A stretch of DNA of 64,000 nucleotides from Desulfobacter hydrogenophilus. Lineage in GTDB: Bacteria; Desulfobacterota; Desulfobacteria; Desulfobacterales; Desulfobacteraceae. The stretch covers positions 3,598,501 to 3,662,500 of the forward strand of contig NZ_CP036313.1 in NCBI RefSeq assembly GCF_004319545.1, given 5' to 3'. Under the pieces are notes generated by a model that ran no database searches, had not been told where the DNA came from, and saw nothing but the letters and a program-made list of their open reading frames with translations. Position 1 is the first letter of the stretch; the number at the start of each line of letters is the position of its first letter. The translations under genes and the position numbers were made by a program. This document shows positions 33,932-59,486 of the stretch, piece by piece.

Positions 33932-35195
33932 GGTTAAACCCCAGGCTCTGCCGTTCAAAGACGCACATGATTTCTGGAAGGAGAAGCTCCAGCTGTCCCC
34001 AAAGGAATATTATGCGCTGTCCGATGAGGCTAAAATGAAAGCCTTTGCCGTTTCCGGCATGGCCAGGGGGGATGAGCTTGCCATGGTGTATGAGGCCTTG
34101 ACCCGGGCCATTGAGGGTAAGATCGGGTTTGAAGATTTTAAGAAGGGTCTGTCTGATGTGTGGGAGAAACGGGGCTGGACCGGGGTCAGTGCCTGGCGGG
34201 TGGATAATATTTTCCGCACCAATGTCCAGGCGGCCTACATGGCAGGCCGATGGAAACAGGCCATCCGGGCCGCCGGAACCAGACCCTACGGACAATACTC
34301 TGCGGTGCTGGACGTCCGTACCCGGCCCACCCACACGGCGGTGCACGGCATGGTTTATCCCCTGGATCATGCCTTCTGGGATACCTGGTGGCCTTTAAAT
34401 GGATTCCGGTGCAGATGCACGGTGAAAACCCTGTCCGAACGTCAGGTGAAAAACCAGGGGTTGACCGTGCAGACCGAGGACATGACCGGCAAGCTGGTGG
34501 AACCGGTGGACCCGAAAACCGGCAACAAGGTGCCTGCCCGGCTGCTGATGCCGGATCCGGGGTTTACCTATCATCCGGGCAAGAGCGCCTTTGGGGGCAT
34601 CACCCCGGCGGAGGGACCAGGTGGGCTTACGGACATTGGGATACGCACCTTTGAGAATTACAAGCGGCGGAAGATGGATAACCTGCCAGTTGCAGCCCAT
34701 CACCGGTTTACAGATAAAGATCTGCTGGAGAATAAAGCCGATTATATGCAGCGCACCGGGCATGACAGCAAGGCTGCCGAAGCCCATTTTGTCAAAGCAT
34801 TTTTGACAGAATTCGGTTTGAAGGCCGGGGAGGTCATGGTCTACAAAGACGTGCTGGGGGAGGCTGTGGTCATCGGCGAGGATCTGTTCAAGACCGCCGG
34901 TGGTAAGCTAAAGATCACGAAAAAAGGTCGGGAAAAGTACTTGAAGCTGCTGGCTCGAACCATCAAGGAACCGTATGAGGTGTGGCTGGTTCCCCAGAAA
35001 AATATACAAACGGGCCGGGTGATTCTTCGACGGCGGTATATCGCGGCATTTTCCGACGGTCCGGACAATAAGATCACCGGGTTTGCCACCTTTGATTATG
35101 ACCGGCATGGCTGGGAGGGGGTGACGGCTTTTCCTCCGGACAAGATGGCATACACGGACGCACTGAGGAACGGGGCCTTGATTTATAAAAAATAG
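33924..35195 (+). CDS. Mu gpF-like head morphogenesis protein with probable C-terminal nuclease domain
   Basis: 423 residues from the ATG at 33924 (AAGGAGGAG upstream). Residues 1-170 are the gpF head-morphogenesis domain (RVDNIFRTNVQAAYMAGRW, DVRTRPTHTAVHGMVYPLDHAFWDTWWPLNGFRCRCTVK). The C-terminal part from about 290 (EPYEVWLVP..., RVILRRRYIAAFSDG, GFATFDYDRHGWEGVTAFPPDKMAYTDALRNGALIYKK) resembles the phage-type barnase/EndoU/colicin-like nuclease domains often fused to gpF in Mu-like phages. Such fusions are thought to act on infection or against rivals. The nuclease call is by pattern memory. Confidence 0.78.
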   Translation: MGKVKPQALPFKDAHDFWKEKLQLSPKEYYALSDEAKMKAFAVSGMARGDELAMVYEALTRAIEGKIGFEDFKKGLSDVWEKRGWTGVSAWRVDNIFRTNVQAAYMAGRWKQAIRAAGTRPYGQYSAVLDVRTRPTHTAVHGMVYPLDHAFWDTWWPLNGFRCRCTVKTLSERQVKNQGLTVQTEDMTGKLVEPVDPKTGNKVPARLLMPDPGFTYHPGKSAFGGITPAEGPGGLTDIGIRTFENYKRRKMDNLPVAAHHRFTDKDLLENKADYMQRTGHDSKAAEAHFVKAFLTEFGLKAGEVMVYKDVLGEAVVIGEDLFKTAGGKLKITKKGREKYLKLLARTIKEPYEVWLVPQKNIQTGRVILRRRYIAAFSDGPDNKITGFATFDYDRHGWEGVTAFPPDKMAYTDALRNGALIYKK

Positions 35196-37826: not shown

Positions 37827-37999
37827 CGGTATTGACAGGAGGCAACCTCATTTTTAAGTGGGTTTATATCCCGGATTGAAAATCTGAACGCGACGAAAAT
37901 CCATTGGAACGGGGACGGATTTTAAATCCGTCCCCATGACACAAAATCAACGGGACGGATTTAAAATCTGTCCCCAGGACAGGCAAGGGCAGGCAGAAT
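37827..37999. repeat. Intergenic region with two copies of the dispersed palindromic repeat
   Basis: Two near-palindromic units built on GGGGACGGATTTTAAATC and its complement lie at 37911-37935 and 37951-37975. Related copies are at 33657-33685 (inside the portal gene), 36789-36813, 42383-42407, 42464-42487 and 43064-43088. Each can fold into a stem with the centre TTTAAA. They sit almost only between late genes. They may be small mobile repeats or mRNA processing sites. Confidence 0.75.
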
Positions 38000-38434
38000 A
38001 TGACGGTTTTATACTGCACGGAAACGGATTTAAAGGAGTATCTGCTCCAGGCATATCTGGACAAGATAGAGCAGATTAACCCCGGCACCGTGGGTCGAAC
38101 CCTTTCGAATGTATCCCTGGAAATCCGGGAGGCCATTCTCCAGGGGGAGCACACCATCCCGGAGACAGAGTCATCTGCGGTTTTAAAGCGCATTTGTGCG
38201 GTGATAACCGCCTGGCGGTGTGTGGGGGATATCACCAGCCTCATGAATACGGAAGCGGGTTCAAACAACGAATGGATACCCTTGCAGCGGCTGTTTGACC
38301 AGTCCCGGAAGGATCTGGACAGTATCCGTTCCGGGAAATTGATGCCCTACCCTGAAACAGATGCAGGTGACCCGGGTATCAGTGTGTCTGCACCTGCGGT
38401 GTTGTTCGGGCCTGACACCTGGGGGCTTTTTTAA
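38000..38434 (+). CDS. DUF1320 family protein (Mu gp36-like)
   Basis: 144 residues. YCTETDLKEYLLQAYLDKIEQINPGTVGRTLSNVSLEIREAIL and CAVITAWRCVGDITSLM are typical of the DUF1320 connector-type proteins that follow the capsid gene in Mu-like phages and probably form the head completion ring. The stop overlaps the next ATG (TAATG). Confidence 0.8.
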   Translation: MTVLYCTETDLKEYLLQAYLDKIEQINPGTVGRTLSNVSLEIREAILQGEHTIPETESSAVLKRICAVITAWRCVGDITSLMNTEAGSNNEWIPLQRLFDQSRKDLDSIRSGKLMPYPETDAGDPGISVSAPAVLFGPDTWGLF

Positions 38435-40173: not shown

Positions 40174-41859
40174 ATGGGTGACGTACTTGAATATATCGTT
40201 GACGGGACCAGTGGACTGGCACCCGGCGGCGTGGAAGGGTCCTGTATTGTTGCAGGTGTCTGCAGCACCGGGACCGTTGGCAAGGGGTATCTGCTGGGGA
40301 AATCCAGTGATCTGGACGGGCTTTTGGGCACCGGTCCTCTGGTGGATCGGCTCCGGGATCTGTTTGCCACCGGCGGGCAGGCTCCCATTGCCATTGCCGT
40401 GCCGGTGACGGGATCGGCCGGCGGGCAAATTGCAGAAGTGGAGCACACCGGGGATGGCCCGGAAGGCGCGGCCACCGGGGTTGCCGTGGGCAATGCCGAT
40501 GCCGTTGTGGAAATTGTGGAAGGCGGCGCACTGGGTACGGCCACCGCCAAGGTGTCCGAGGATGGCGGCACCACCTGGGGAGACACCGAAGCTGTGGCGG
40601 TGAACGGACAGATTTCCATAGGCACCACCGGTGCCACGCTGACCCTGGCTGCAGGCACCCATGAGGTGGGGGATACCTATGAATTTTCCGTACGGGCACC
40701 CATTGGCCCTGTCACCAAGACAGGCAGCGGCGGCCCGGATGTCACCCTCACCGGCACGGTGAAGGCGGCGGCGGATCTGGTGTTGAAAATCATGAGCGCC
40801 GGGGCGCTGAACGTGGCCACCTATCAGCTCAGCCTGGACGGGGATTCTTTCGGCCCCACCAAAACCGTGCCGCTTAACGGACAGATCGTGGCTGGAGATA
40901 CCGGGGTAACCATCACCGTGGCATCGGGTGTTGATCTGGTGGCAGGCGTGATCTATGAATGCCGTCTCCTGCCCCCGGTGCCGTCCATAACTTCTGTGAT
41001 GACAGCCCTGGAACAACCCTTGAGCCTGTTTGATGTGGAGTTTGTTTATGTGGTTGGGCCGTCGGATTCTGTGGATTGGGCCGCCATGGGTGCCAAGGCG
41101 GATACATTATGGAACGCCCATCGTCCCACCTTCTTTCTGGCAGAGGCCAGACTGCCCTATGCCAGTGAAGATCTGAACGAATGGACCGCAGCCATGGTGG
41201 TGGAAAAACAGGGGTATGCCCACCGATTTGTATCCGTGTGTTGCGCCTTTGGCGAGGTGACAGACACCCTGGGCTATACCCAGTTCCGGAACTGGGCCGG
41301 ATTGATGGCGGGCAAGATTTTGTCAATTCCGGTGATGCGGGCCACGGGGCGTGTCAGGGATTCCGGGATCTCCCAGGGCAGTCTGCCCGATGATTTCACC
41401 GAGGGCATGCAAAAGACCCTGGAGACTGCAGGCTACGCCACGGCCAAGTATTATGCGGGCCTGAGTTCGGCGTACTGGGGGGATGCCAAGACCCTGGCCG
41501 ATGTCACCAGCGATTATCAATACATTGAAGTGTTGAGGACGGTGTTCAAGGCTGTCAGAAAAGCCCGGATTGCAGCGCTCAAGAGCATGTATGACGAAGC
41601 GGGCGATCCCCTGGCCGAGGGCGGCGCATCTGGCCTGAACTATCTCAAGGCCAATATCGAAATGGCGTTAAACACCATGAAGGCGGCCATTCCCCATGAA
41701 CTGGCGGACTATGTGATCACCATCCCCGACGGTCAGGACATCGTCAATAACGGTGTGGCCGTGGAGATGCAGCTCATTGGCATCCCCATTATCCGACAGA
41801 TCAAGCTGTACGCCAGCTACATTTATGCGGGCAGCGGCTTTGACCCCAGACTGCAATAG
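40174..41859 (+). CDS. Contractile tail sheath protein (DUF2586 type)
   Basis: 561 residues. The N-terminal stretch (TGPLVDRLRDLFATGGQAPIAIAVPV) and the C-terminal half (ALEQPLSLFDVEFVYVVGPSDSVDW, HRFVSVCCAFGEVTDTLGYTQFRNWAGLMAGKILSIPVMRATGRVRD, YQYIEVLRTVFKAVRKARIAALKSMYDEAG) match the DUF2586 sheath family. An inserted beta-rich part (residues 85-260, with repeated GATLTLAAG and GVTITVASG segments) is probably a surface decoration. It shows that the phage is a myovirus. Confidence 0.83.
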   Translation: MGDVLEYIVDGTSGLAPGGVEGSCIVAGVCSTGTVGKGYLLGKSSDLDGLLGTGPLVDRLRDLFATGGQAPIAIAVPVTGSAGGQIAEVEHTGDGPEGAATGVAVGNADAVVEIVEGGALGTATAKVSEDGGTTWGDTEAVAVNGQISIGTTGATLTLAAGTHEVGDTYEFSVRAPIGPVTKTGSGGPDVTLTGTVKAAADLVLKIMSAGALNVATYQLSLDGDSFGPTKTVPLNGQIVAGDTGVTITVASGVDLVAGVIYECRLLPPVPSITSVMTALEQPLSLFDVEFVYVVGPSDSVDWAAMGAKADTLWNAHRPTFFLAEARLPYASEDLNEWTAAMVVEKQGYAHRFVSVCCAFGEVTDTLGYTQFRNWAGLMAGKILSIPVMRATGRVRDSGISQGSLPDDFTEGMQKTLETAGYATAKYYAGLSSAYWGDAKTLADVTSDYQYIEVLRTVFKAVRKARIAALKSMYDEAGDPLAEGGASGLNYLKANIEMALNTMKAAIPHELADYVITIPDGQDIVNNGVAVEMQLIGIPIIRQIKLYASYIYAGSGFDPRLQ

Positions 41860-43017: not shown

Positions 43018-43106
43018 TCGCCGGAGTCGATCGCCAGGGTTGATTTGTCGGGGGCAAAATGTCGGGGACGGATTTAAAATCTGTCCCCACGACACGAGGA
43101 GGAAGG

Positions 43107-46100
43107 ATGGACACAGTTTTTTCAGTGCAGGCGGTCATGAGCCTGATAGACAATATCACCGCTCCCTTGCGGGCGGTGAGAAACAGCATGGGGGACACCG
43201 AGCGGGCCGCTGGCGGTATGGCTGCCCGCATGGGTGTCGTTACCAAGGCCATGCTGCCCCTGGCTGTGGCTGCTGGTATTTTTCTGGGGGGGATCACCGG
43301 GGCAGCGGCGGCGACTGTCGAGACGCAATCTGCCTTGGGGGAACTGGCATCTGTCGGCATAACTGATTTAAACCGTCTTTCAAAGGCTGGAGAGCAGTTT
43401 TCCTGGCAATGGGCCGGAACCACAAAGGCAGAATTTATCTCTGCAGCATATGATATCAAATCCGGGATTTCGACGCTGACCGACGCAGGCGTGGCAGAGT
43501 TTACCAAGCTGGCAGCTTTAACCGGCAAGGCCACAAAGTCTACAACGGCGGAAATGACAAGCCTGTTCGCGACTGGATACGGGATCTATAAGGAGATGTA
43601 CTCCGACCTTTCGGATATTGATTTCGGGAAGGTGTTTTCGGCTGGCATATCATCAAGCGTCAAGAATTTTAAAACAACGGGGTCCGGCATGGCCCAGGCT
43701 ATATCACAATTGGGCGCTACAGCCACGACAGCAGGCGTTTCCATTGCTGAACAATTCACGATGCTCGGGATGCTCCAGGCAACAATGACTGGCAGCGAAG
43801 CGGGGACAAAGTATAAAGCTATCATGCAATCCGCAGCAGGTGCAGGTGAAAAATTAGGGCTGCAGTTCATGGATTCAAACCGCCAACTGCTATCCATGCC
43901 AAAGATACTTACCGCGTTGAAGGGCAAATATGGAGCCACTTTGGATGCCATGGAAAAAATGGATATCCAAAAAGCTTTCGGCACCCATGAAGCCATGGCG
44001 GTAATAGACCTTTTGTATGGAAAAATAGAGGGTTTGGAAGGGAATATAACAGGCATGGGTGAGGCTATGAAAAACGGAAGCAACGTAACTTCATCCATGG
44101 CGGACACAATGAATCGAGACCTGGGGGCTTTATATCAACTCAACCGCCAGAGATTCCACAATTTGAAAGAAATTATCGGGAATATATTCACTCCTGTGAT
44201 GCTGTTTTTGTCTACATGTCTTGGGAATGTACTGAGTTTGCTCTCATTTATTGCCGCGACCAAAGTGGGGAAGGCCTTTATTTCCATTGCTGCGGTTGTG
44301 TCAGTGGCTATTGTCGCCTTCACCGCATTCACCGCGGTGTGCGCGCTTTCCGGAATCGTCATTCCTTTTATCACCACGGCCCTGGCCGGGCTTGCCATGG
44401 CCATTGCTGCGGTGTCCTGGCCGGTGTGGGCAGTGGCGGCGGCGGTGGCTGCGCTGTATCTGTCCTGGAAGAAAAACTTTGGGGGTATTGCAGATATCGT
44501 AACAGGCTGGTGGAACAAGATCAGTCTGGTATTCCGGGGGGTGCGGGCGGTGTTTGCGTCGCTTAACGGCACCCATGGGATGATTGAGGGCGAGCTTGCT
44601 AAAGAAATCAAGGCCGCCGGGCTGGTGGGGCTTATCACCACGGTTTCCCGGGTGGTTTTCCGGATTCAATCGTTCTTTTCCGGGCTGTGGGATGCCATAA
44701 AGTTCTCCGTGGCCGGGGTTGCGGATATTCTGCGCCCGGTTTTTGAGAGCTTCATGGGGGCGGTGTCTCCGCTTTTGGATATTTTTAAGGCGGTGGGGTC
44801 TGCCATCGGCCAGGTGGTGAGTGCATTGTTCGGCTTTACTGCTTCCACTGACGTTTCCGGGTGGCGTACATTTGGCGAGGTCATCGGTATTGTGGTGGGC
44901 GCTGCTTTTCAATTGCTGGCATGGGCGGTGCGCATTGCACTGGTGCCATTGCAGCTGGTGTTTGATGTGGTGGGCGTACTGCTGAAAGCGTTTGTAATGC
45001 TGGGTGAAGGTATCGGCACGGCCTGTGGCTGGATAGTTGAGAAATTTACAAGCCTGTGGGCCACGGCCAAAGAAAAGGTGGGCGGCATCGGCGGTATATT
45101 TGATGCCATGGTGGCGGCTGTAAAGTGGGCCTTCATGAACCTGACACCGGTGGGCTGGTTGATCCAGGCCTTCACCGGGGTATCTGAATTCTTTGACAGT
45201 GTTGATTTCTCCGAATCCGGGGCCAAGATGATGCACACCCTGGCTGACGGCATCAAATCTGCTTTGATGGTTCCCGTGGATCTGGTGAAATCGGGTCTGA
45301 GTAAGATCAGAGACCTGCTGCCGTTTTCCGATGCAAAGGAGGGTCCATTGTCTGCCCTGACCGCATCTGGCCGGGCCATGATGGACACCCTGGGTGCCGG
45401 GGTTCGGGGGGCAGCTCCCGGGTTGGCTGCCAGCGTTAAGGGGGCCGTGGCCGGGGTGACCGCTGCCATGGTGATTGCTGCTCCCGGCATGGCGGATATT
45501 AAGTCTCCGGTTGTGAACCAAATTAAGCCTCCTGTCATGGCAGATATCCAAACACCTGCCCTGGCGGATGTCCAGGCACCGACCATGCCCGAACTTGAGG
45601 CACTGACCCTGCCAGGCATAGCAGCACCGACGGTGGATGAGATCAAACCTCCTGTCATGACAGACATCCAAACGCCTGCCCTGGCGGATGTCCAGGCACC
45701 GACCATGCCCGAACTTGAGGCACTGACCCTGCCAGGCATAGCAGCACCGACGGTGGATGAGATCAAACCTCCTGTCATGACAGATATCCAAACACCTGCC
45801 CTGGCAGATGTCCAGGCACCGGTCATGCCGGAACTTGAAGCATTGACCCTGCCAGGCATAGCAGCACCCACGGTGGATGAGATTAAACCCCCTGCCATGG
45901 CAGATATCCAAACGCCTGCCCTGGCAGATGTCCAGGCACCGGTCATGCCGGAACTTGAGGCATTGACCCTGCCAGATATGCCAGAGCCCGGGAATTTGCC
46001 GGGGCCGGATACAGGCACGACCTCAGACACAGCCGGGAAGCAACAGGAAGGCTCCCGGGCATCGTCCGAACAATCCGGAGAGGGCAAAACAATCATCCAG

Positions 46101-46731: not shown

Positions 46732-47537
46732 ACATCACCGGCATCAGAACCCGGCTGATCATTGGCGGGCAGGAGTACCTGAGAATCCCTGAAATGTCCC
46801 TGGATTATCGGCGGCATGCCCCCTTATCTGTAGCTCAAGTGACCTTGGCCGATCCTGGCGGGGATATATTCAAAAGCCTTTCCCCGGGTACGGCCATGGA
46901 GATCCATCTGGGATACAGAGACCAGGAGGCCGATGTGTGGACGGGCACGGTGCAACGGGTAACTCCGGATCGAAAGCCAGACCAAGTCCGCATGACCGGC
47001 GTGGGCGGTGAATTACCGCTGTCCGAAACCCTGATCACCAAAAGCTGGGAGAATGAAACTCCGGAAGCCATCGTCACGTATTGTGTGGGCCAGACGGGCC
47101 TTCCCCCGGGTAATATAGATGCCACCGGGATTATATTCCCCCGGTTCGTGGCAGCGACCATACCGGTGTGGCAGGTGGCCAGGCAGTGTGAGCATAGCTG
47201 CCACCGGGGGTTCGGGCGGGACATGGACACCTGGGATTTATGGATGGACAAGGCCGGGTCTGTTCACTGGGGGGATTCTGACGAGGACGGAGATATCCCT
47301 GTCATTGCCACCGCTGGGGGAGTAATTTCCCACGCACCGGCAACGGCCCCTTTGACCGAGCTGTCCATGGTGGAAACCTTCCTGCTTCCCGGGTTTCGCA
47401 GATGCGGAAAATTCCAGCTGACGGATACCCGGCGTGGCATTGATGACGTCTTCCGGGCGCGGGTGGTGCGCCATGTGGTTCAGCCCAACAAAATCAGAAC
47501 CTATATATGGTATGGGGCGGAATATGGAAAATATTGA
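46728..47537 (+). CDS. Baseplate hub protein (Mu gpP / gpD late-control type)
   Basis: 269 residues. SVAQVTLADPGGDIFKSLSPGTAMEIHLGYRDQEADVWTGTVQRVTPDRKPDQVRMTGVG is the typical start of hub proteins, and PEAIVTYCVGQTGLPPGNID, then a LysM-like central part, follow. It forms the trimeric centre of the baseplate that carries the spike. Overlaps the previous gene by four and the next by 14 bases. Confidence 0.75.
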   Translation: MNITGIRTRLIIGGQEYLRIPEMSLDYRRHAPLSVAQVTLADPGGDIFKSLSPGTAMEIHLGYRDQEADVWTGTVQRVTPDRKPDQVRMTGVGGELPLSETLITKSWENETPEAIVTYCVGQTGLPPGNIDATGIIFPRFVAATIPVWQVARQCEHSCHRGFGRDMDTWDLWMDKAGSVHWGDSDEDGDIPVIATAGGVISHAPATAPLTELSMVETFLLPGFRRCGKFQLTDTRRGIDDVFRARVVRHVVQPNKIRTYIWYGAEYGKY

Positions 47538-48000
47538 TCTTAAAGCCCTAATGAAACGGGCGGTGGAGCTGGTAATGCCGGATTTGCGCAGCTATTACCG
47601 GGTGGTGAGAAAAGCCCGGGTGGTAAAAACATATGCATCCGACGGCACCTACTGGGCCGATGTCCAGCCCTTGAGAAACGATGAGTCCGACGACCCGATG
47701 GAGCCTGTGGTCCCCAAGGTGGAGATCCCGATAATATGGGCAGGTCCCCAGCGGGGGGTGGTGTGCCCGCCCATGGTGGGGACACGGTGTGATCTGGCCT
47801 ATTATGACGGGGACCCTGATTATCCCCGGTTGTCGAATTTTCGCTGGGAGGGGATGAAAGCCCCGGTCATTGAGGTGGGCGGGTTTATTATCCAGCAGGA
47901 GGCAGGTGTGCATATAAAAATCGACGCTGGAAAGAACATAGAGATCAAAACCCCTGGCAATATCACACTTGTGGGTGCCAGGATTGATCTGAACCCATAA
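47524..48000 (+). CDS. Baseplate spike protein (Mu gp45 / gpV type)
   Basis: 158 residues from the ATG at 47524. An OB-fold N-terminal part (VKTYASDGTYWADVQPLRND...PMEPVVPKVEIPIIWAGPQRGVVCPPMVGTRCDLAYYDGDPDYP) is followed by the regular beta-helix-like stretch EVGGFIIQQEAGVHIKIDAGKNIEIKTPGNITLVGARIDLNP, typical of membrane-piercing spikes. It should carry the PAAR tip encoded by the next gene. Confidence 0.82.
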   Translation: MENIDLKALMKRAVELVMPDLRSYYRVVRKARVVKTYASDGTYWADVQPLRNDESDDPMEPVVPKVEIPIIWAGPQRGVVCPPMVGTRCDLAYYDGDPDYPRLSNFRWEGMKAPVIEVGGFIIQQEAGVHIKIDAGKNIEIKTPGNITLVGARIDLNP

Positions 48001-48016
48001 CGTAAAGGAAGATTAT

Positions 48017-48301
48017 ATGCCGGCAGCACACAGACATCAGGACACATGCACCGGGCACGGGTGCTATCCGCCCCGGGCAAACGTGGCCGCCAGCCCGGAT
48101 GTGTTTGTAAACAGTCTTGGCTGGCATCGGGTGGGGGACGCCTGGGGCGTACACTGCTGAGGCCCCCCCTGACACGGGGGATCTGCTGCCGGGGGCAGCG
48201 CAACGGTATTCGTAAACGGCAAGGCTGCCTGCAGGATCGGTGATCCGGTGAATTGTGGCAGCAGCATGGCGACAGGGAGCGGCAATGTCTTTGCAGGATG
48301 A
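48017..48301 (+). CDS. PAAR-type spike tip with two in-frame TGA codons, possible selenoprotein
   Basis: One frame of 95 codons from ATG 48017 (AAGGAAG upstream) to TGA 48299-48301, broken only by TGA at codons 48 and 52. Both halves have PAAR-type repeats: DVFVNSLGWHRVGDAWGVHC, then after the TGA codons GGSATVFVNGKAACRIGDPVNCGS and a GNVFAG end. The junction reads HC-(TGA)-GPP-(TGA)-HGG, where related proteins would be expected to carry Cys. A hairpin GCTGCC-GGG-GGCAGC starts 13 bases after the second TGA, with its loop at about +19 to +21, similar to bacterial SECIS elements. Alternative: a pseudogene with two nonsense changes. Confidence 0.6.
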
Positions 48302-48722
48302 TAAATTTGGGCAGGATATACGGCTGGACGAAAACATGCAGGCCATGGTGGCCGCCAATGGAGAGCTGTATCTCACCGACGGGGTTGATACAGGGTGTCA
48401 GGATATTAAATTGCGCCTGTTCACCCCCCTGGGGAGTCTGTTCTATGACAATGCCTTCGGTTCCAAGGTGTATCTGTGGGTGAAGGATGAAAATCATCTG
48501 GCTGGACGGTTGGCATTTTGCGGCGAGGTGGTCCGGCGGATGCGCATGGATCCCCGGGTGGTGCCTGGTTCAGAGGCCTGCAGTATCCTGTCATGGGATC
48601 ATACGGGGATAACGGCGGCGGTGTCGTGGCGGTTCATAGACGTGACACACGCCCAGAACTTGGTGATAGAAGTGGGCACCGACAACATGGAAATGGTGAT
48701 TAAAGATGTCAGTACCGATTGA
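48285..48722 (+). CDS. Baseplate protein, gp46 (gpW/gp25-like) family
   Basis: 145 residues from the ATG at 48285, overlapping the end of the PAAR gene. FGQDIRLDENMQAMVAANGELYLTDGVDTGCQDIKLRLFTPLGSLFYDNAFGSKVYLWV is the usual gp46/gp25 pattern of the baseplate wedge, followed by RMRMDPRVVPGSEACSILSWDHTGITAAVSWRFIDV. The start of the next gene overlaps its end. Confidence 0.8.
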   Translation: MSLQDDKFGQDIRLDENMQAMVAANGELYLTDGVDTGCQDIKLRLFTPLGSLFYDNAFGSKVYLWVKDENHLAGRLAFCGEVVRRMRMDPRVVPGSEACSILSWDHTGITAAVSWRFIDVTHAQNLVIEVGTDNMEMVIKDVSTD

Positions 48723-49848
48723 TAAGACCCTGGATGAGGTTCGGACAGATTTGTTTTCAAGGATATCCGATGCCCAGAGCAACGGGTACCTGCCCCAGCT
48801 GCTGAATTTGAATAAGGGAGTGGTGCGGGGACTGATAGAGATCTGGGCCTGGGGTCTGTGGCAGATGTATCAGTTTATGGTGGTGGTTTTTAAACAGCTG
48901 TTCCCCACGCTGGCCACCGGTACATGGCTGGATCTGCATTGCAGTCAGGTGGGGGTCACCAGGCAGGTAGCCACCCGGGCTGTTGGGATGGTTTCTTTCT
49001 CCCGGCTGGAAGCTGCAGGCAATGTCAATATTCCCATGGGTACTGTGGTCAGGACAAAACCCGATGGTGCCGGGACCATGCAGCGCTTTTTGACGGTGAC
49101 TGCGGTGATCCTGCCAGAGGGCGCACTATCGGTTTTATCGGAAGTTAAGGCCCAGGATTACGGCCGGGAGGCCAACGTCACGGCGGGCATGATATCCGAA
49201 ATCATCACGCCTGTTGCGGGCATTGACAGTGTTACCAACGCGGTGGACTGGCTGGCGACGGAGGCGGTGGATAATGAAACAGACGACGCATTACGCCAGC
49301 GGTACATCCTGGCCTGGAAGAATATCAACGGGTCCACCAAATACGCTTATGAATCATGGGCCAGAAGCGTGACCGGGGTAGTGTCTGCCCGGATAATGGA
49401 CAGGCATCCCCGGGGAATGGGCACGGTGGATGTCATTATTCGGGGATCTGCCGGGGTGCCAAGCGCTGACCTGATCGCCCAGGTAGACGCGGTGGTGCAG
49501 GCCAGTCGGCCCATTAATGATGATGTACTGGTCAGGGGGCCTGTCCCCGTCCCGGTGGATGTTATTGCCGAGCTGGTGCTGGCATCCGGCACCCCATCAT
49601 TGATCCTGGCAGAAGCAGAAAGCCGGGTGCGGGCTATGTTCGCCAACCCGCCGGTTCTGGATGATGTCACCCCGGTGTATGTCGGGGATGACTTGACGCT
49701 GGACAGGTTTGTGCTGGTCATGATGGCGGTGTCCGGAGTGAAGGAGATTATTTTCGCTGATCCGGTGGAGACCGTGGTTGTCCCGGCGGATGGCCTGGCG
49801 GTGCTTGCCGGAGTCACGCTGTCCTATTCCTTTGCAAGTGAGGCGTAA
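48706..49848 (+). CDS. Baseplate wedge protein J (Mu gp47-like)
   Basis: 380 residues. Signature stretches of baseplate J proteins are visible: FPTLATGTWLDLHCSQVGVTRQVATRAVGMVSFSR, REANVTAGMISEIITPVAGIDSVTNAVDWLATEAVDNETDDALRQRYILAWKNINGSTKYAYESWARSVTGVVSARIMDRHPRGMGTVDVII, and a beta-rich C-terminus. It forms the wedge ring around the hub. Start overlaps the gp46 gene by 17 bases. Confidence 0.88.
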   Translation: MSVPIDKTLDEVRTDLFSRISDAQSNGYLPQLLNLNKGVVRGLIEIWAWGLWQMYQFMVVVFKQLFPTLATGTWLDLHCSQVGVTRQVATRAVGMVSFSRLEAAGNVNIPMGTVVRTKPDGAGTMQRFLTVTAVILPEGALSVLSEVKAQDYGREANVTAGMISEIITPVAGIDSVTNAVDWLATEAVDNETDDALRQRYILAWKNINGSTKYAYESWARSVTGVVSARIMDRHPRGMGTVDVIIRGSAGVPSADLIAQVDAVVQASRPINDDVLVRGPVPVPVDVIAELVLASGTPSLILAEAESRVRAMFANPPVLDDVTPVYVGDDLTLDRFVLVMMAVSGVKEIIFADPVETVVVPADGLAVLAGVTLSYSFASEA

Positions 49849-52687: not shown

Positions 52688-53707
52688 ATGATAATTTTCG
52701 CAAAAGATAGTCTCCGGGCATCCGTGGAAGCCGCAACCGGCGGAAAAACAACCGTATTATACGACGACAAAGGCTACCCGTCATACATGACGGTGATTCC
52801 CAAGTTCAACGTGGAAGACATCGACGCTGGCCTGGGCACCGGCGTACACCCGGCATTCGTTGTCGGTGGGGTAGAAAAATCGGAATTCTTTTTCGGACAG
52901 TATCCGGCCATCGTGAAAGACGGGCGTGCGCTGTCATTGCCCGGGGTGGACCCCGCGACGTCGATTGATTTCGACAATGCCCGGGCGGCATGCGTGAATA
53001 AAGGTGCAGGCTGGCACATGCTATCGAATTGGGAGTGGGCGGCCGTGGCGTTATGGTGCATCAAAAACGGGTTCGAGCCCCGGGGGAACACGTATTACGG
53101 CAGGCACCATGATCAGGTGCATGAGCGGGGCCGTAGGCAGGATGGCATTGCGCCGGGGACTGCATCCGGTACGGCACGCACATTAACCGGCTCAGGCCCG
53201 GCATCATGGCGGCATGATAATACCCTGGCTGGTGTGTCTGACATGGTGGGAGATAATTGGAAGTGGGTTGACGGAATGAAGTTTGTAAACGGCGCTATTT
53301 ACATGCCCAATGATAACAATTTTAATGCAGACGAGGCCGACTGGGTCGCGCAGGGTGTGCAGGCCTCGGAAGATGGTGCCGGTGTGTACAAGCTGGGAGC
53401 ATTGGCAGATACGCTGCCGGCTGTCGGAAGCAAAAGTGTTGCCCTGTGGAAAAGCATTTTGACCACGACCGCATATGATGCACTGTCGTCTGCTACAAAA
53501 TTGCGCATGCAGCAGGCTTTAATCGACCCGTTTTTTGCAGATGACCCGCTGGGGGCATTTTATTTTGATGTCGATGGAGAACGGGTCCCGCTCCGTGGCG
53601 GCCATTGGAACGCCACGTCCGATGCCGGGTTGGGCTCGCTGTACTTGCACAACGGCCGGTCCAGCGTGAGCCCGTACGTCGGGTTTTTCCCCGCTTTTAT
53701 CGCCTGA
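52688..53707 (+). CDS. DGR variable protein: phage receptor-binding protein with C-type-lectin-like fold
   Basis: 339 residues. The last third ends in the variable region (RVPLRGGHWNATSDAGLG, then SLYLHNGRSSVSPYVGFFPAFIA), a C-terminus typical of DGR targets in which the residues at diversified positions lie on a C-type-lectin or formylglycine-enzyme-like fold. Upstream, GWHMLSNWEWAAVALWCIKNGFEPRGNTYYG and GVSDMVGDNWKWVDGMKFVNGAIYMPNDNNF carry the usual WEWAA and WxWVDG elements of this fold. As last structural gene of the late operon it is the likely host-recognition protein, like Mtd in Bordetella phage BPP-1. Confidence 0.88.
   Translation: MIIFAKDSLRASVEAATGGKTTVLYDDKGYPSYMTVIPKFNVEDIDAGLGTGVHPAFVVGGVEKSEFFFGQYPAIVKDGRALSLPGVDPATSIDFDNARAACVNKGAGWHMLSNWEWAAVALWCIKNGFEPRGNTYYGRHHDQVHERGRRQDGIAPGTASGTARTLTGSGPASWRHDNTLAGVSDMVGDNWKWVDGMKFVNGAIYMPNDNNFNADEADWVAQGVQASEDGAGVYKLGALADTLPAVGSKSVALWKSILTTTAYDALSSATKLRMQQALIDPFFADDPLGAFYFDVDGERVPLRGGHWNATSDAGLGSLYLHNGRSSVSPYVGFFPAFIA
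53584..53695 (+). repeat. DGR variable repeat (VR)
   Basis: 112 bp at the 3' end of the target gene, matching the template repeat with a constant offset of 650 bases and no gaps. It differs at 13 positions, ten of them opposite adenines in the template: 54253, 54262, 54263, 54271, 54286, 54287, 54292, 54298, 54314 and 54322. The invariant 3' segment GGGTTTTTCCCCGCT just before the target stop is the probable initiation site of mutagenic homing. Confidence 0.93.
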
Positions 53708-53754
53708 TTATCTGAAATCTGAAACCCTGAATATCTGAAAAGGATTTTTAAGAC

Positions 53755-54102
53755 ATGTCCAGTACATACGGAAGCCTCAAAATACAGCAAAAGTGGGAAG
53801 ACATGACCGTGTACGCCTATGTGGCGTTGCGCCAGATGCCCAAGAGCGAGCGGTTTACGTTGGGTGCGGAGATCCGGTCTAAGCTGTGGTCGGGGTTTCA
53901 GTTGATCATTAAGGCCAACGCAAGCAGAAACAAAATGCCATTTCTGTTTGAGATAGACGTGGAGATAAAAACCCTGCTGGCACTTACCAGGGTGGCGTAT
54001 GGCATGAAGATCATTCCGTTCAAACAGTATGAGCATCTGTCCGTATTGCTGGTTGAACTGGGCAAAATGCTCGGAGGCTGGATGAAGTATGGCAGATCTT
54101 AG
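53755..54102 (+). CDS. avd: DGR accessory variability determinant (Avd)
   Basis: 115 residues between VR and TR. Helical and basic, matching the four-helix-bundle Avd family: KIQQKWEDMTVYAYVALRQMPKSERFTLGAEIRSKLWSGFQLIIKAN, then ALTRVAYGMKIIPFKQYEHLSVLLVELGKMLGGWMKY. Avd proteins form a pentamer that binds the reverse transcriptase and template RNA and is needed for mutagenic homing. AAGGATTT precedes the ATG only loosely. Confidence 0.88.
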   Translation: MSSTYGSLKIQQKWEDMTVYAYVALRQMPKSERFTLGAEIRSKLWSGFQLIIKANASRNKMPFLFEIDVEIKTLLALTRVAYGMKIIPFKQYEHLSVLLVELGKMLGGWMKYGRS

Positions 54103-54233
54103 CACGGCGGGCCTTAAAGATGTCAGGATAAAGTAAGCGAAACGCGCTGACATTCAAAGATTTTTTAACGAATGCCCCCGAGGTATTCATGGGTAGATGC
54201 AGCACACAGTAACACACAGGGATGAGGCCCTAT

Positions 54234-54345
54234 GGTCCCGCTCCGTGGCGGCAATTGGAACAACACGTCCAATGCCGGGTTGGGCAATCTGAACTTGAAC
54301 AACGTCCGGTCCAACGTGAGCACGTACCTCGGGTTTTTCCCCGCT
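54234..54345 (+). repeat. DGR template repeat (TR)
   Basis: 112 bp, same sequence as VR apart from 13 substitutions. AAC and AAT codons dominate at variable positions (for example GGCAATTGGAACAAC), the hallmark of templates whose adenines are mutated during cDNA synthesis. It lies between avd and the reverse transcriptase gene. A frame of 78 codons crosses it, but this follows from the shared coding potential with VR. Confidence 0.93.
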
Positions 54346-54441
54346 CTCCTCTACGTCAGATGCTGTCTGGCCATGGCCGGGCAGTCAGCACAGAGGGAAA
54401 AGGAGGCCTCAGTCCTTCCCGAAAGGGAAAATATATATCTG

Positions 54442-54496
54442 GCCCGGCGGCGAGTAAGCGCGTATTGACGCGCCCAAAGTGGCCGGGCTTCTTTTT
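54442..54496 (+). terminator. Structured hairpin with T-rich tail downstream of TR
   Basis: GCCCGGC (54442-54448) pairs with GCCGGGC (54482-54488), enclosing an inner stem GCGCGT/ACGCGC at 54458-54463/54468-54473, and TTCTTTTT follows. It could end the template RNA or form the structured 3' part that DGR template RNAs need for priming by the reverse transcriptase complex. Confidence 0.6.
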
Positions 54497-54617
54497 GCGG
54501 TTATGGTCTTCTTTTTGTCATGGGGCGATGACCGTAGCTTTTATGGGATAGGAAGACCAGAGCTGAACGTTTCCGGCATAGTTGATCATGAATTGAGACC
54601 CGAAAAGAAAGGTAAAA

Positions 54618-55667
54618 ATGCCAAAGACATATAACAATCTATGGGAAAAAGTCGTTGAATATGAAAATCTGCACAAAGCTTTCCTGGCTGCCAGGAAGGG
54701 CAAGAGATATCAGCTGGATGTTTTAAATTTTTCGGAAAGACTTGAAGAGAACCTGATCGACATTCAAAATCATCTCATGTGGAAGTCCTGGAGCCCGGGC
54801 AAATACAAAAGCTTTATCACTCATGAGCCAAAGAAGCGCTTTATCCAGGCGCCACCTTTTAAAGACAGGGTGGTACATCATGCGCTGGTGCAAATCATAG
54901 AGCCCTTGTTTGAAAAAAAGTTCATTTACCATTCTTACGCCTGCAGGCGGGGGAAGGGCACCCATGGTGCGGTGGCTAAAACCCAGGCGTATTTAAAGAT
55001 TGCAGCGGCTAAATGGGGAAATGAATCCGCATACGTCTTAAAAGCGGATATCAGCAAATACTTTCCCTCCGTCAATCACAGAATTCTGATGAAAATCCTA
55101 AAGAAAACAATCCGGGACAAGGATGTATTGTGGCTGTGCGGGCTGATCATCTACAAAGGTGGTGTTGGCGGGTTTAGCATCCCGGTCGGGGCTTTGACAT
55201 CTCAGTTGTTCGCCAATATCTACCTGGACCAGCTGGATCATTTCATGAAAGATCAATTGGGTCTGCCCTATTATATAAGGTATATGGACGATTTTATTGT
55301 TTTTGGGCCGGACAAGCACTGGTTGCGCAAGGCCATGATTCTGGCAGTTGGTTTTATTACCGACGAGCTTCAGCTCAGGATGAATCCAAAGACACAGATA
55401 TTCCCGATCCGTCAGGGGGTTGACTTTTGCGGGTACAGGATGTGGCCCACACATGCCTTGCCACGCAAGCGGAATGTTAAACGGGCTAAGTTGCGATTTT
55501 TGAAGCTGACGAGGCAATATTCGGATGGTGTGGTGGGTTTAAGGGGTGTGTTTGCTTCGGTGTCTTCTTTTGTCGGATATATGAAGCATTGCAGTTCTTA
55601 TACTACGACAAAAAATATTCTTACTTCAATCCGGTTGATGAAAAACAAAAGTGAAGAAGGCAATTAA
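54618..55667 (+). CDS. DGR reverse transcriptase
   Basis: 349 residues. Motifs of a DGR-type reverse transcriptase are visible: catalytic YMDD at about 222-225, motif LKADISKYFPSVNH at 141-154, and GALTSQLFANIYL at 191-203, in which the SQ replaces the QGxxxSP found in group II intron enzymes; this is diagnostic for DGRs. The N-terminal 90 residues (FKDRVVHHALVQIIEPLFE) and the C-terminal thumb agree. It copies TR RNA with frequent errors at adenines. It is the last gene of the prophage. Confidence 0.92.
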   Translation: MPKTYNNLWEKVVEYENLHKAFLAARKGKRYQLDVLNFSERLEENLIDIQNHLMWKSWSPGKYKSFITHEPKKRFIQAPPFKDRVVHHALVQIIEPLFEKKFIYHSYACRRGKGTHGAVAKTQAYLKIAAAKWGNESAYVLKADISKYFPSVNHRILMKILKKTIRDKDVLWLCGLIIYKGGVGGFSIPVGALTSQLFANIYLDQLDHFMKDQLGLPYYIRYMDDFIVFGPDKHWLRKAMILAVGFITDELQLRMNPKTQIFPIRQGVDFCGYRMWPTHALPRKRNVKRAKLRFLKLTRQYSDGVVGLRGVFASVSSFVGYMKHCSSYTTTKNILTSIRLMKNKSEEGN

Positions 55668-55753: not shown

Positions 55754-56923
55754 TTATAGCACGCGGCTACAGCCTTTGCCACATTTGGGGCATGCTTTAA
55801 TGTCAATGCCGGTCAGTCTGTGCATCATTTCTTCTACTGACTCATTTTCAGGATGTGCTGGCTCTTTGAACTTATCACCCGTCAATTTTCGGATCAGTTT
55901 TATGTTCACTGCTTTGTACCGGGGGGATAGAAAACCAAAGTGCCTGATTTTTTTAAACCCTCTGGGTAGCACATGAAGCAGGAACCGTCTGATGAACTCC
56001 ACAGCATCAAGAGTCATCTCTTTTATGGCATCATTTTGAGCCCGGTCCTTCCAGGTGAACACAACTTTGCCGTCTTCAAAGGATTTGATACGGTAATTTG
56101 AAATGGCGACTCTATGGGTATACCTTCCTAAATATTCCAGGACTTTTTCAGGGCCGGAACAAGGGGCCTTGGCGTAACCGGACCATTTCTTTTTCCGGAT
56201 AATTTTGATCAGGCGGTTGAAACCAGAACGGGTGCCGTACTTGGCCGTATTACCCGGGAACTTGAGATCCCCGTCCTGGTATAGTTGCTTGAGTCCTTTG
56301 ATGTAGATGCCCTTGAACGCCTTTACTATGGAGGCTGTCTTGAATAGAAAATTCGTTTTGGATGGGGTCCATTGGGTTTTGTCTTCTGACAGCACACCGC
56401 CGGGAACAAGGCAGTGCAGATGAAAATGGTCCAGGATGGTCTGGTTCCATGTATGCAATACGGCAATAAAGCCAGCCTGCCCCTGGAGTCTCCATTGGGG
56501 ATCGGTAGCAAATTGTTTAATGGTCTGATTTACCGAGGAGAACAGCAGGTCCAGCAACGGCTTCATATTACAGAGGATGATAGGATTCAGGTTGTGGGGC
56601 AGTGTGAACACCAAATGATAATAGGTGGCAGGCAATAGTTCTGACACCCGTTTATCTAACCATTTTTCCTTGGTCATGGTCTGGCATTTGGGGCAGTGCC
56701 GGTTCCTGCAGGAGTTGTAGGAGTTCTTTTGGAAATCGCAGTCAGGGCAAGCGTCTATATGGCCTCCTAAAGCAGCTGTTCGGCAGGTAATGATTTTATT
56801 CATGACCTTTATCTGTTCGTGTGAAGCTCCGAAAGTTTCCAAAAAGCGTTGCCCAGCGTGTCTGAAGATATCGGCAATGTCATGTTCGGGTCTGCTGCTT
56901 TTATTGCAGCATTCTCCGATCAT
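55754..56923 (-). CDS. IS91-family transposase (Y1 HUH type)
   Basis: 389 residues. The N-terminal zinc-binding part has CPDCDFQKNSYNSCRNRHCPKCQ, the HUH-like motif LHCLVPGG with its two histidines (DHFHLHCLVPGG), and later LEYLGRYTHRVAISNYRI with the candidate tyrosine, as in IS91/IS801 elements that move by rolling-circle replication. The C-terminus carries another Cys pair (ACPKCGKG). Its start overlaps the stop of the recombinase gene. The pair forms a two-gene IS91 subgroup. Confidence 0.88.
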   Translation of the reverse strand: MIGECCNKSSRPEHDIADIFRHAGQRFLETFGASHEQIKVMNKIITCRTAALGGHIDACPDCDFQKNSYNSCRNRHCPKCQTMTKEKWLDKRVSELLPATYYHLVFTLPHNLNPIILCNMKPLLDLLFSSVNQTIKQFATDPQWRLQGQAGFIAVLHTWNQTILDHFHLHCLVPGGVLSEDKTQWTPSKTNFLFKTASIVKAFKGIYIKGLKQLYQDGDLKFPGNTAKYGTRSGFNRLIKIIRKKKWSGYAKAPCSGPEKVLEYLGRYTHRVAISNYRIKSFEDGKVVFTWKDRAQNDAIKEMTLDAVEFIRRFLLHVLPRGFKKIRHFGFLSPRYKAVNIKLIRKLTGDKFKEPAHPENESVEEMMHRLTGIDIKACPKCGKGCSRVL

Positions 56924-57753
56924 TAAAGCACCACGTCAGCCGGGCTGACAACTTGGGATATGGCCTCATTGCTGATGTGAAGATACTTTGCCGTGGTTCT
57001 GATGGATTTATGACCGAGCATCTGCTGAAGTACATGTGTCCGGGTTCCCTGTTCGAGAAGGTGAGTCGCAAAGCAGTGACGAAGGGTATGTATGCCTTTG
57101 CCACGTTTTACACCGGCTTCTAACTTGGCCGTGTAATAAATTTTCTGAGCTGTCTCAACTGGCATCGGTTTTGATCTGGTTTTGCCGAAAAAGATCCATT
57201 CGTTCGGTTTAAAAAGCCGCCAGTAGTCTTCCAGAGTCTTTAGTAAGGTATCTGACAAGACTGTATACCGGTCTTTTCTGCCTTTACCTTGCTCTATCCG
57301 TATCATTTTGCGGGATCTTTCAATGTGTATCGGTTGGAGCTTTACAACTTCACTGACCCGCAATCCTGCGCTGTATGTGGCCAGAAGAAGGGCATAATGC
57401 TTGGGGTTGGTGCAGGCATTCAGTATTTGCGCCACTTCTTCCCGGCTCAGTGCCATGAAGATTTTCCTTTCCTGAGGCCGGGGCGGTATGGAAATCTTGG
57501 GCTCCCGTTTTAATACATGCCTGTAAAATCTCTTTATCCCTGAGAACTGTACATTGCAGCTACTCCAGGCCAGTTGTCGGTCTGCAATAATATAGTCGAG
57601 ATAATCTTGGATCTGGGAATCGGTCAGTTGATCCGGTGCTTGCTTGTAGTGCGCGGCAAGCAATTTTACCGCATTCATATACGCCGCATTTGTTTTTGGC
57701 GAAAGCCGGTGAAGAGTCATGTGTCGATCAAATTGTTGGCGAAGTTGTGTCAT
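56923..57753 (-). CDS. Tyrosine recombinase of the IS91-type element
   Basis: 276 residues. SAM-like core-binding domain at residues 1-95 and catalytic domain with Arg in YSAGLRVSEVV, HxxR in HTLRHCFATHLLEQG, the GH in LGHKSIRTT and the nucleophilic Tyr in AKYLHIS. Such integrases regularly precede IS91-type transposases in many proteobacteria. It overlaps the transposase start and is not the prophage integrase, since Mu-like phages integrate by their DDE transposase. Confidence 0.88.
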   Translation of the reverse strand: MTQLRQQFDRHMTLHRLSPKTNAAYMNAVKLLAAHYKQAPDQLTDSQIQDYLDYIIADRQLAWSSCNVQFSGIKRFYRHVLKREPKISIPPRPQERKIFMALSREEVAQILNACTNPKHYALLLATYSAGLRVSEVVKLQPIHIERSRKMIRIEQGKGRKDRYTVLSDTLLKTLEDYWRLFKPNEWIFFGKTRSKPMPVETAQKIYYTAKLEAGVKRGKGIHTLRHCFATHLLEQGTRTHVLQQMLGHKSIRTTAKYLHISNEAISQVVSPADVVL

Positions 57754-58028
57754 CTTTTCCTCCTGAATTATGGGTGGATACTCAGGAGAATGATGGAATA
57801 AGACAGGGTAAATATAAAGGGATATTGTATAGTCGCGGCTGACTGGCCCATCAATGGGTAAGATGCCAGGTTGGCGTTTCTTTCCGCGGAGCGGTTTTGT
57901 TCAACAAGTAATTGTGTAGTTTTTTTCTGGATAACTCCAAACCATTTCATTCCTATTTTCAGTATCAGAAAAAAACCGAATTGACAAATAAATTATAAAG
58001 ATGCTATAGGATTTTCTAACGGGATAAC
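57754..58028. other. Intergenic region upstream of the integron-integrase-like gene
   Basis: No gene supported. If the downstream recombinase is a true integron integrase, its attI site would lie here, left of its start. No site matching GTTRRRY with flanking repeats was convincing. The region starts with the end of the IS91-type element. Confidence 0.35.
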
Positions 58029-59486
58029 ATGCGGATTTTGGAGTTATGCAGCAAAATGCCACTCATTCAGATCAACCAGAATTTATTAACCAGTTACAAC
58101 CAGGAATTGGTTTACAAAAATGTTCCGGCAAAAGAACAGCAGTACTATGTGAAATGGTTGAGGTACTATCTGGATTTTTGCAATAAATACAAATTCAATT
58201 CTGCAGACGATGGTAGTATTCCCCATTTCATTGAAAAATTACATTCAAAAAGGCAATCGACGTTTCAAAAGCAACAGGCACAAAAAGCAATAAAAATATA
58301 TTTCGGGTTGATTGCCCGGGAACAACAGAGAAAGCAGACTTATCAAAACCCTAATGCAGACAAAATAACCTGCAATGAAATTGGTGAGGCTCCACAACCC
58401 TATCAGGGTAAAGTTCAAAATAATCGTGCTGTTTATTCACCACAGCCTGAAAGACGGTCTGCGGCCACACCATCAAAACCTGATGTAACGCCCGATGCAG
58501 TCAGTGATGTGGAAACAGGCCAATCATGGGAAACCGAATTTAAAAAACTGTCTGATGAAATTAATGTCCGCCACTATTCACCTAAAACACTAAAGTCGTA
58601 TCGCCTATGGGCCCAAAAGTTACAAACCTTTACCCGGTCAAAATCCCCATCACTTTTGGATGTCAATGATGTAAAAGCGTTTTTAACCCATCTTGCAGTG
58701 GAAAAGAAAGTCTCTGCATCATCACAAAATCAGGCATTTAATGCATTGCTTTTCTTTTTCCGGCATGTGCTGGGGAAGGAATTTGGGAAAATTGATGGTG
58801 TGGTTCGCGCGAAAAGACGGCCGTATATACCAGTTGTTTTATCTAAACAAGAAGTGAATGATGTGATTTCCGTGATGCGTCCTCCTTGTGATTTGGTAGT
58901 AAAAATGCTTTATGGCTGCGGATTACGACTGTCGGAATGCCTGAATTTGCGAATTAACAATTTCAATTTTGATGCCGGGATATTAACCGTCCATGACGGT
59001 AAAGGAAAAAAAGATAGAACGGTTCCCATTCCAAAAGTCCTGGTTGATGAATTGAAGGTCCAGGTGGACAAAGTGTATCAATTACATAAAACCGACCTTT
59101 CTAATGGGTATCATGGTGCTTTTATGTTTGACCGGATCGAAAAGAAATATAAAAATGCAGCTAAAGAATTTATCTGGCAATGGTTTTTCCCAGCTAAAAC
59201 TCTGACTGAAGTCGCCGACACCAAGGAAATCAGACGATACCATTTCCATGAATCCCACGTTCAGAAAGCGATCAAAAAAGCAGTGAACAAAGCCAAATTA
59301 ACAAAACGGGCAACCGCACACACATTCAGGCACAGCTTTGCAAGCCATCTGCTCCAGGCCAATTATGATATTCGTACTATACAGACCCTGCTGGGCCATA
59401 GCGATGTGCGAACCACCATGATATATACTCAGACCGTGCCGTCCATGACCGTAAAAGAGGCCAGGAGCCCTTTGGATATGACCTAA
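58029..59486 (+). CDS. Tyrosine recombinase related to integron integrases, with N-terminal extension
   Basis: 485 residues, about 150 more than IntI. Residues 1-150 are an additional helical part, perhaps a second SAM-like domain. The catalytic part has Arg in GCGLRLSECLNL, then the extra IntI-type segment AKEFIWQWFFPAK followed by RRYHFHESHVQKAIKKAVNKAKLTKRATAHTFRHSFASHLLQANYDIRTIQTLLGHSDVRTTMIYT, with HxxR and the Tyr of MIYT. That extra segment distinguishes integron integrases from phage enzymes. Genes left of it with an attC-like site point the way expected for its cassettes, but 49 kb away. Confidence 0.75.
   Translation: MRILELCSKMPLIQINQNLLTSYNQELVYKNVPAKEQQYYVKWLRYYLDFCNKYKFNSADDGSIPHFIEKLHSKRQSTFQKQQAQKAIKIYFGLIAREQQRKQTYQNPNADKITCNEIGEAPQPYQGKVQNNRAVYSPQPERRSAATPSKPDVTPDAVSDVETGQSWETEFKKLSDEINVRHYSPKTLKSYRLWAQKLQTFTRSKSPSLLDVNDVKAFLTHLAVEKKVSASSQNQAFNALLFFFRHVLGKEFGKIDGVVRAKRRPYIPVVLSKQEVNDVISVMRPPCDLVVKMLYGCGLRLSECLNLRINNFNFDAGILTVHDGKGKKDRTVPIPKVLVDELKVQVDKVYQLHKTDLSNGYHGAFMFDRIEKKYKNAAKEFIWQWFFPAKTLTEVADTKEIRRYHFHESHVQKAIKKAVNKAKLTKRATAHTFRHSFASHLLQANYDIRTIQTLLGHSDVRTTMIYTQTVPSMTVKEARSPLDMT

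Follow-up and report, generated by a model that had tools for sequence, protein, structure and literature searches.

The closest known kin of the gene described here are the PAAR-repeat spike tips, for example T4 gp5.4, VCA0105 and c1882 (PF05488, phrog_281). For the metal of such tips, the available part of PMC10715212 gives a ligand set of three His and one Cys. Bacterial selenoproteins form the second group of interest, and Table 1 of PMC13188914, a review of 2026, comprises 119 families or subfamilies. No PAAR or phage protein was seen in the table, and the words phage, viral, virus, PAAR and tail are absent from the main text of the paper. Similarly, the available portions of PMC12013277, PMC2398784 and PMC5029168 do not mention PAAR, and phage occurs in them only within a species name. 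Huge phages carry tRNA-Sec genes and may encode selenocysteine (Sec) proteins, as stated in the available sections of PMC10747093, a text in which the word 'selenoprotein' does not occur, and among the other trace-element protein families examined in PMC9402790 few or no viral sequences are reported in the part at hand. A description of a phage or PAAR selenoprotein was not found in the open-licence papers searched. An animal poxvirus has a selenoprotein, so the novelty of the present case would be limited to its occurrence in a phage and to its structural use.

The window, i.e. the whole stretch of 64,000 nucleotides of Desulfobacter hydrogenophilus DNA that was analysed, harbors a prophage whose tail is contractile, because a tail sheath gene is present. 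A small gene within its baseplate region very probably encodes, as judged from sequence comparison, the PAAR tip of the tail spike with both internal UGA codons read as Sec. The features to which the text refers are the following, all on the + strand:

40174..41859, +, tail sheath gene (phrog_907, E 2e-66)
47524..48000, +, baseplate/spike protein gene, directly 5' of the PAAR gene (phrog_4011, E 3.7e-46)
48017..48301, +, PAAR spike-tip gene of the contractile-tailed prophage, 94 residues with predicted Sec U48 and U52
48062..48064, +, Cys16 codon, predicted partner of U48
48155..48157, +, Cys47 codon, predicted partner of U52
48158..48160, +, in-frame TGA codon 48, predicted Sec, covariation partner Cys16
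48170..48172, +, in-frame TGA codon 52, predicted Sec, covariation partner Cys47
48184..48200, +, putative bSECIS hairpin UGCUGCC(GGG)GGCAGCG, 7-bp stem and loop GGG
48285..48722, +, baseplate protein gene, overlapping the end of the PAAR gene (phrog_975, E 3.7e-10)
48299..48304, +, tandem stop TGA TAA at the end of the PAAR frame, TAA here in the related phage contig L188
48706..49848, +, baseplate wedge (J-like) gene (phrog_6, E 7.1e-62)

The PAAR gene starts with ATG, preceded by a Shine-Dalgarno-like AAAGGA. A preliminary description made from the letters of the sequence had held that the frame is open apart from two TGA codons, and reading of 48017-48301 agrees: TGA48 and TGA52 are the sole interruptions. 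The proposed identity as a PAAR spike tip was likewise upheld by matches to Pfam PF05488 (39.2 and 38.5 bits, cut-off 27) and to phrog_281 (E 3.6e-35), and the predicted model of the protein displays the PAAR cone fold. The type VI secretion PAAR equivalog NCBIfam NF033420 was rejected as its identity, the score of 69.7 bits being below the curated cut-off of 124.

Several other features of the window were recorded. A reverse transcriptase (RVT_1) is encoded at 54618-55667, and a pair of 112-nt direct repeats of 88% identity is found at 53584-53695 and 54234-54345, the first copy being located at the end of a frame (52688-53707) without Pfam match. The region 52688-55667 thus shows signs of a diversity-generating retroelement of the prophage. 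Directly behind the reverse transcriptase, at 55754-59486, lie genes for an IS91-type transposase and two tyrosine recombinases of the phage integrase family. The beginning of the long frame at 33795-35195 (+) contains a TGA (codon 23), which is most likely an artefact of an upstream start, and peptides of the GTDFKSVP type, present in several frames (e.g. 43040-43530 and 37864-38268), are perhaps due to a dispersed DNA repeat of the host.

The preliminary description expected Cys at codons 48 and 52, and the alignment of homologues confirmed this. All of the 41 aligned sequences, out of the best 120 of 234 found, have Cys at position 48, and 34 have it at position 52 too. P0001, which is the best intact relative at 82% identity, carries the motif HCCGPPCHGG. 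In the 173 hits from the window and the loci first collected, codon 48 encodes Cys 152 times and is TGA three times, namely in the window, the copy from its own genome (L015) and L188. The latter is a diverged phage contig whose baseplate region is homologous to that of the window, with 67% DNA identity along 1.35 kb, and which has both TGAs; it was the only PAAR gene among nine stretches of IMG/VR matched by a scan for the double-TGA motif, the other eight being chance matches. Behind both TGAs (codons 53-94), window and L188 differ at 56% of synonymous but 9% of non-synonymous sites (pS 0.56, pN 0.09; dN/dS 0.099), so the region appears to have been selected as protein: purifying selection acts downstream of the TGAs in this pair, as read from the substitution pattern. 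This argues against a pseudogene that arose through two nonsense mutations in a tip gene whose prophage was decaying, as does the condition of the flanking baseplate genes, which are open frames matching phage families. Decay would agree with the absence of a match at E <= 1e-6 from the 17 listed genomes of the same genus, which indicates that the genus does not carry this prophage throughout.

The distribution of TGA among related genes bears on the same question. An alignment of distinct PAAR sequences (292 rows) contains 18 rows with a total of 23 in-frame TGAs, and 22 of these are at columns 16, 48 and 52, i.e. at three of about 94 columns, all of them conserved Cys; internal TAA or TAG codons are absent from the alignment. 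The earlier argument that random decay would hardly produce such TGAs is borne out by this concentration. Besides the window, the TGA-bearing rows are L188 with both TGAs, 15 more, and L265, a probable stray copy that also holds the remaining TGA, at column 73 (an Arg position). In the larger set of 219 PAAR hits, which includes duplicate loci and was obtained with TGA-bearing members among the queries, 27 internal stops on 22 loci are all TGA. The TGA is at codon 16 in L195, L197, L200, L202, L204, L205, L143, L235, L247 and L260 (the protein of L235 equals that of L197, and that of L260 equals that of L205), at codon 48 in L208, L210, L211, L262 and L266, at codon 52 or its equivalent in L145, at 16 and 52 in L196, and at 48 and 52, with the third at Arg73, in L265. 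The fewest changes that explain the pattern on the tree are six at codon 16, seven at codon 48 and four at codon 52.

Pattern scans of the collection used for the double-TGA motif gave PAAR genes in 7 of 12 stretches for TGA16, 3 of 5 for TGA48 and 1 of 12 for TGA52, the other 5, 2 and 11 stretches being chance matches, whereas control patterns of similar stringency with TGA at Cys 11, 47 or 80 gave none in 29 stretches. Tail genes adjoin 9 of the 12 TGA loci checked (L195, L202, L143, L262, L266, L210, L211, L204 and L145) and were not found beside the other three (L196, L208 and L265). L265 (G647:C23:5271-5543) is located next to genes for a single-strand-binding protein and a universal stress protein and is perhaps a stray or decaying PAAR copy. 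At least one TGA copy may therefore be a decayed gene, given its third TGA at an Arg and the lack of adjoining tail genes, and a pseudogene in the window would have a precedent there. In full-length copies, however, the internal stops are TGA only and nearly all are on conserved Cys columns, with changes to TGA at several places of the tree. Together with the selection seen in the L188 comparison, this makes decay of the window gene very improbable.

Genome surveys showed that the phenomenon extends over several phyla. In Synergistota, the phylum of the Synergistaceae genome with L145, 39 of 185 genomes matched and 5 of the 51 listed matches have one TGA. The only other stop in this survey is a TAA in a partial match of 31 residues (L268 in G225), which was left out of the SECIS, tree and 292-row counts and kept in the 286-row comparison of positions 47 and 52 given below. 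According to the available part of PMC5029168, Synergistetes are a selenoprotein-rich phylum, which fits this result. In the phylum of the Bacillota MAG G146, 6 of 398 genomes matched, one with TGA, which is G146 itself. Around the window, where the order, class and phylum surveys share genomes, 5 of 395 genomes of the phylum matched at six places (three with TGA), 19 of 389 of the class matched with TGA at 2 of 21 listed places (the window's genome G000 and the distant G1200), and a first single-sequence search of the order matched 9 of 146 genomes with TGA in the window alone. The preliminary description had treated the case as unusual; this view needs amending, as TGA recurs in PAAR genes of phages and genomes from several phyla. 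G1200, which belongs to the same family as the window's genome, encodes a weak PAAR-like relative at L333:1501-1794 (- strand), with one TGA in frame. The TGA position is Cys in both full-length homologues found (P0122 and P0123), and this type may represent a second PAAR-like group with Sec. The public record of an L333-type gene, P0121 from Desulfobacterium sp., contains, as a hypothetical protein, no more than a part downstream of the TGA; such genes are easily missed.

An alternative genetic code, in which the phages would read TGA as Trp or Gly, is the least probable of the explanations considered and close to negligible. Among the 15 sequences checked, frames read with the standard code and at least 150 residues long account for 46-86% of the length, and TGG codons (5 to 237) occur in 14; TGA serves as the stop of 18 of the 45 long frames in the window. 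The exception with respect to TGG is L262, which lacks this codon in its two long frames, and TGA stops are missing from the few long frames of L210 (5), L211 (4), L196 (3) and L145 (1), as an altered code would predict. With these frame, TGG and stop counts, a phage carrying TGA inside many genes was dismissed as a candidate. Homologues moreover have Cys rather than Trp or Gly at the TGA positions, except for Trp48 in the database PAAR protein P0118 (HCWGIPCHGG). The corresponding codon of the similar L208 is TGA, and we suspect that a gene caller using code 4 turned a TGA of P0118 into this Trp.

The prediction of Sec is matched by the gene content of the host. The preliminary description asked whether selA, selB, selC and selD occur in the host; all four components are present in the window's genome, with tRNA-Sec at 76.1 bits, SelB at 351.7 bits, SelA at 590.5 bits, and a SelD that itself has an in-frame TGA in the context AAG-TGA-AAK. 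Since SelD carries this TGA, Sec decoding is probably in use in the host. A formate-dehydrogenase-like gene with one TGA was also found, with a score below the family cut-off. Genes for tRNA were found neither in the window nor in the 10 phage loci scanned. Among genomes with TGA-PAAR, tRNA-Sec occurs in 9 of 9 (eight plus G000) as compared to 15 of 30 with Cys-only PAAR (Fisher p 0.006), a comparison confounded by phylum, since the Synergistota survey supplied all 30 controls. Within that survey alone the numbers are 5 of 5 versus 15 of 30 (p 0.048). The controls are 30 of the 34 Cys-only Synergistota genomes, the weakest or partial ones (G186, G225, G291 and G298) being omitted, and the comparison excludes G1200 and the Cys-only genomes of other surveys. 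The absences of tRNA-Sec are soft because many genomes are incomplete, and related genomes are not independent. As half of the Cys-only genomes (15 of 30) also carry tRNA-Sec, Sec is optional in PAAR.

These data also concern a reading of UGA without selenium, with Cys supplied by a tRNA-Cys of anticodon UCA or Trp inserted through leaky near-cognate decoding. Cys is indeed the residue of the homologues, and the Trp48 of P0118 would suit the second variant. The association of TGA-PAAR with tRNA-Sec, weaker within one phylum, speaks against both variants, as does the enrichment of SECIS-like hairpins behind TGA52 and TGA16 described below. Suppression with Cys would in addition permit TGA at Cys 11, 47 and 80, for which the control scans gave no PAAR gene. 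We consider decoding without selenium to be very unlikely, on a par with the pseudogene.

The bSECIS model given in the available part of PMC13188914 has a loop of 3-9 nt with a G in its first two positions, a stem of 4-16 bp, a distance of 16-37 nt behind the UGA and an energy at or below -7.5. The hairpin at 48184-48200 (-9.8 kcal/mol) fits this model for both TGAs: TGA52 is separated by 11 nt from the stem (12 nt when the stem is taken without its outer U-G pair) and by 18 nt from the loop, which is 30 nt away from TGA48. The stem-loop with G-rich loop that the preliminary description placed behind the second TGA thus exists, with GGG as loop and at a distance within the model. Folding of the region as a SECIS gave a divided result, since the published model is matched whereas the energy is within the range of shuffled sequences. 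Compared to dinucleotide shuffles, z-scores were -0.44 to -0.84 for three short stretches and -0.11 for a stretch of 101 nt, so that energy alone was dropped as SECIS evidence; a folding energy that is ordinary for the composition is also what a pseudogene would show. No score near a gathering threshold was obtained in an Rfam scan of 47500-49000. A second stem (CCCCC/GGGGG, 48165-48169 with 48176-48180) does exist in the window as had been proposed, but it is not conserved, as one pair is lost and the pairing weakened in L188, and it was rejected as a second SECIS.

Support for the putative bSECIS comes from the comparison of homologues, not from energy alone. The stem of the window is kept in L188, where the outer U-G pair is replaced by C-G and the lone base change in codons 57-63 falls in the loop. 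Upon synonymous randomisation, the fraction of sequences as stable as the window hairpin is 0.060 for TGA52 and 0.128 for TGA48, which is weak, and 0.008 and 0.000 of 500 for L188, which is strong. Hairpins of -7.5 kcal/mol or lower follow U52 in 4 of 5 genes versus C52 in 5 of 125 (p 5.4e-5) and U16 in 5 of 9 versus C16 in 4 of 143 (p 2.3e-5; 4 of 7, p 1.1e-4, once near-identical rows were merged), whereas for codon 48 the excess is not significant (U48 3 of 8, C48 20 of 148, p 0.096); these p-values are optimistic because the rows are related. The hairpins behind codon 16 (8 of 9) have the loops GGTT, GGTC, GGC, AGTG or AGTTCA at 17-18 nt. Neither TGA48 of L210 nor TGA16 of L196 is followed by a hairpin that fits the model, and the hairpin of L208 is very weak (-1.2 kcal/mol only). 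In the window, one hairpin, 48184-48200, probably acts as SECIS for both UGAs. The suggestion that the gene is a candidate phage selenoprotein is hence supported by the Cys of homologues, the TGAs of L188, the Sec machinery and the model-like hairpin, and insertion of Sec at the predicted U48 and U52 is, on these sequence-based grounds, highly likely.

The Cys and Sec positions vary in pairs. Of the 292 rows, 11 have a gap at position 16, 47, 48 or 52 and were not counted. In the others, Cys or Sec occupies 16 and 48 jointly in 260 rows and neither of them in 20, and a single row, P0118 with its Trp48, is mixed. Position 47 is never Cys/Sec without 52 (0 of 286 comparable rows), and 52 without 47 occurs in 30 rows which, among those inspected, are largely HGC-type variants. 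Pair 16/48 is found without 47 and 52 in 42 rows, pair 47/52 without 16/48 in 20 rows, and 29 rows combine 16/48 with 52 while lacking 47. No row has TGA in both members of one pair, among the rows with both readable; this pattern of one Sec per pair represents few independent events, and codon 16 of L188 is not in the count. In the predicted structure, strands 42-47 and 52-57 place residue 47 at the end of one strand and 52 at the beginning of the other. The metal ligands, from alignment to 4jiw, 4jiv and 9f4b, are H14 (291 of 292 rows), H46 (292 of 292), H53 (285 of 292) and C80 (291 of 292), and the TGA positions are distinct from these. We infer that 16-48 and 47-52 would be bridged as selenenyl-sulfides beside the tip metal site.

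A different role of the same residues has to be weighed: with Sec inserted, positions 16, 47, 48 and 52 might bind a second metal instead of forming two bridges. Residues 47 and 52 adjoin the metal ligands H46 and H53, metals are common in spike tips, and the PAAR-like IglG uses four cysteines to hold iron or zinc, as the available text of PMC10715212 describes. Variation as two separate pairs, with 42, 20 and 29 rows in the three partial combinations, argues against a single four-residue site, and we regard the second metal as unlikely, though considerably less so than the other alternatives.

With bridges as the preferred arrangement, the following sequence of events can be proposed. Host SelB and tRNA-Sec would decode UGA48 and UGA52 as Sec, the hairpin at 48184-48200 serving as SECIS for both codons. 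U48 and U52 would each replace one member of the Cys pairs 16-48 and 47-52, and each Sec would pair with a Cys beside the metal site in a selenenyl-sulfide bridge. Because selenenyl-sulfides resist reduction better than disulfides do, the bridges might form on assembly and could staple the tip in the reducing cytoplasm of anaerobes. The hosts are presumed to be anaerobes from the groups to which they belong. The chances of a staple role of the Cys/Sec pairs are in our view about even. The broader proposal, that phages and prophages of Sec-decoding anaerobes repeatedly swapped Cys for Sec, one per pair in the tip, with staples closing where disulfides would not, is tentative and falls slightly short of an even chance.

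If these assignments are correct, a virus-carried family would join the prokaryotic selenoproteome, and the 21st amino acid would have a structural, non-enzymatic use in a virion. The phage would depend on host SelB and tRNA-Sec, and thereby on the selenium supply. The two co-varying Cys/Sec pairs provide a testable model of tip locking.

Compared to the PAAR-repeat spike tips, the window protein differs in having the Cys pairs 16-48 and 47-52, which are absent from the aligned structures 9vyi, 4jiv, 4jiw and 9f4b, and in carrying TGA in one member of each pair. The huge phages are linked to selenocysteine like the phage of the window, but by way of tRNA genes, none of which were found in the window. 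The host SelD is encoded in the same genome and has an in-frame TGA like the PAAR gene, but it is a cellular enzyme and not a phage protein. Similar to bacterial selenoproteins, the window gene has TGA at a Cys position, TGA-bearing relatives in Sec-decoding hosts, a hairpin agreeing with the SECIS model and a host with complete machinery; whereas many of the bacterial families listed in the available part of PMC13188914 are redox enzymes or uncharacterised, the protein predicted here is part of a virion.
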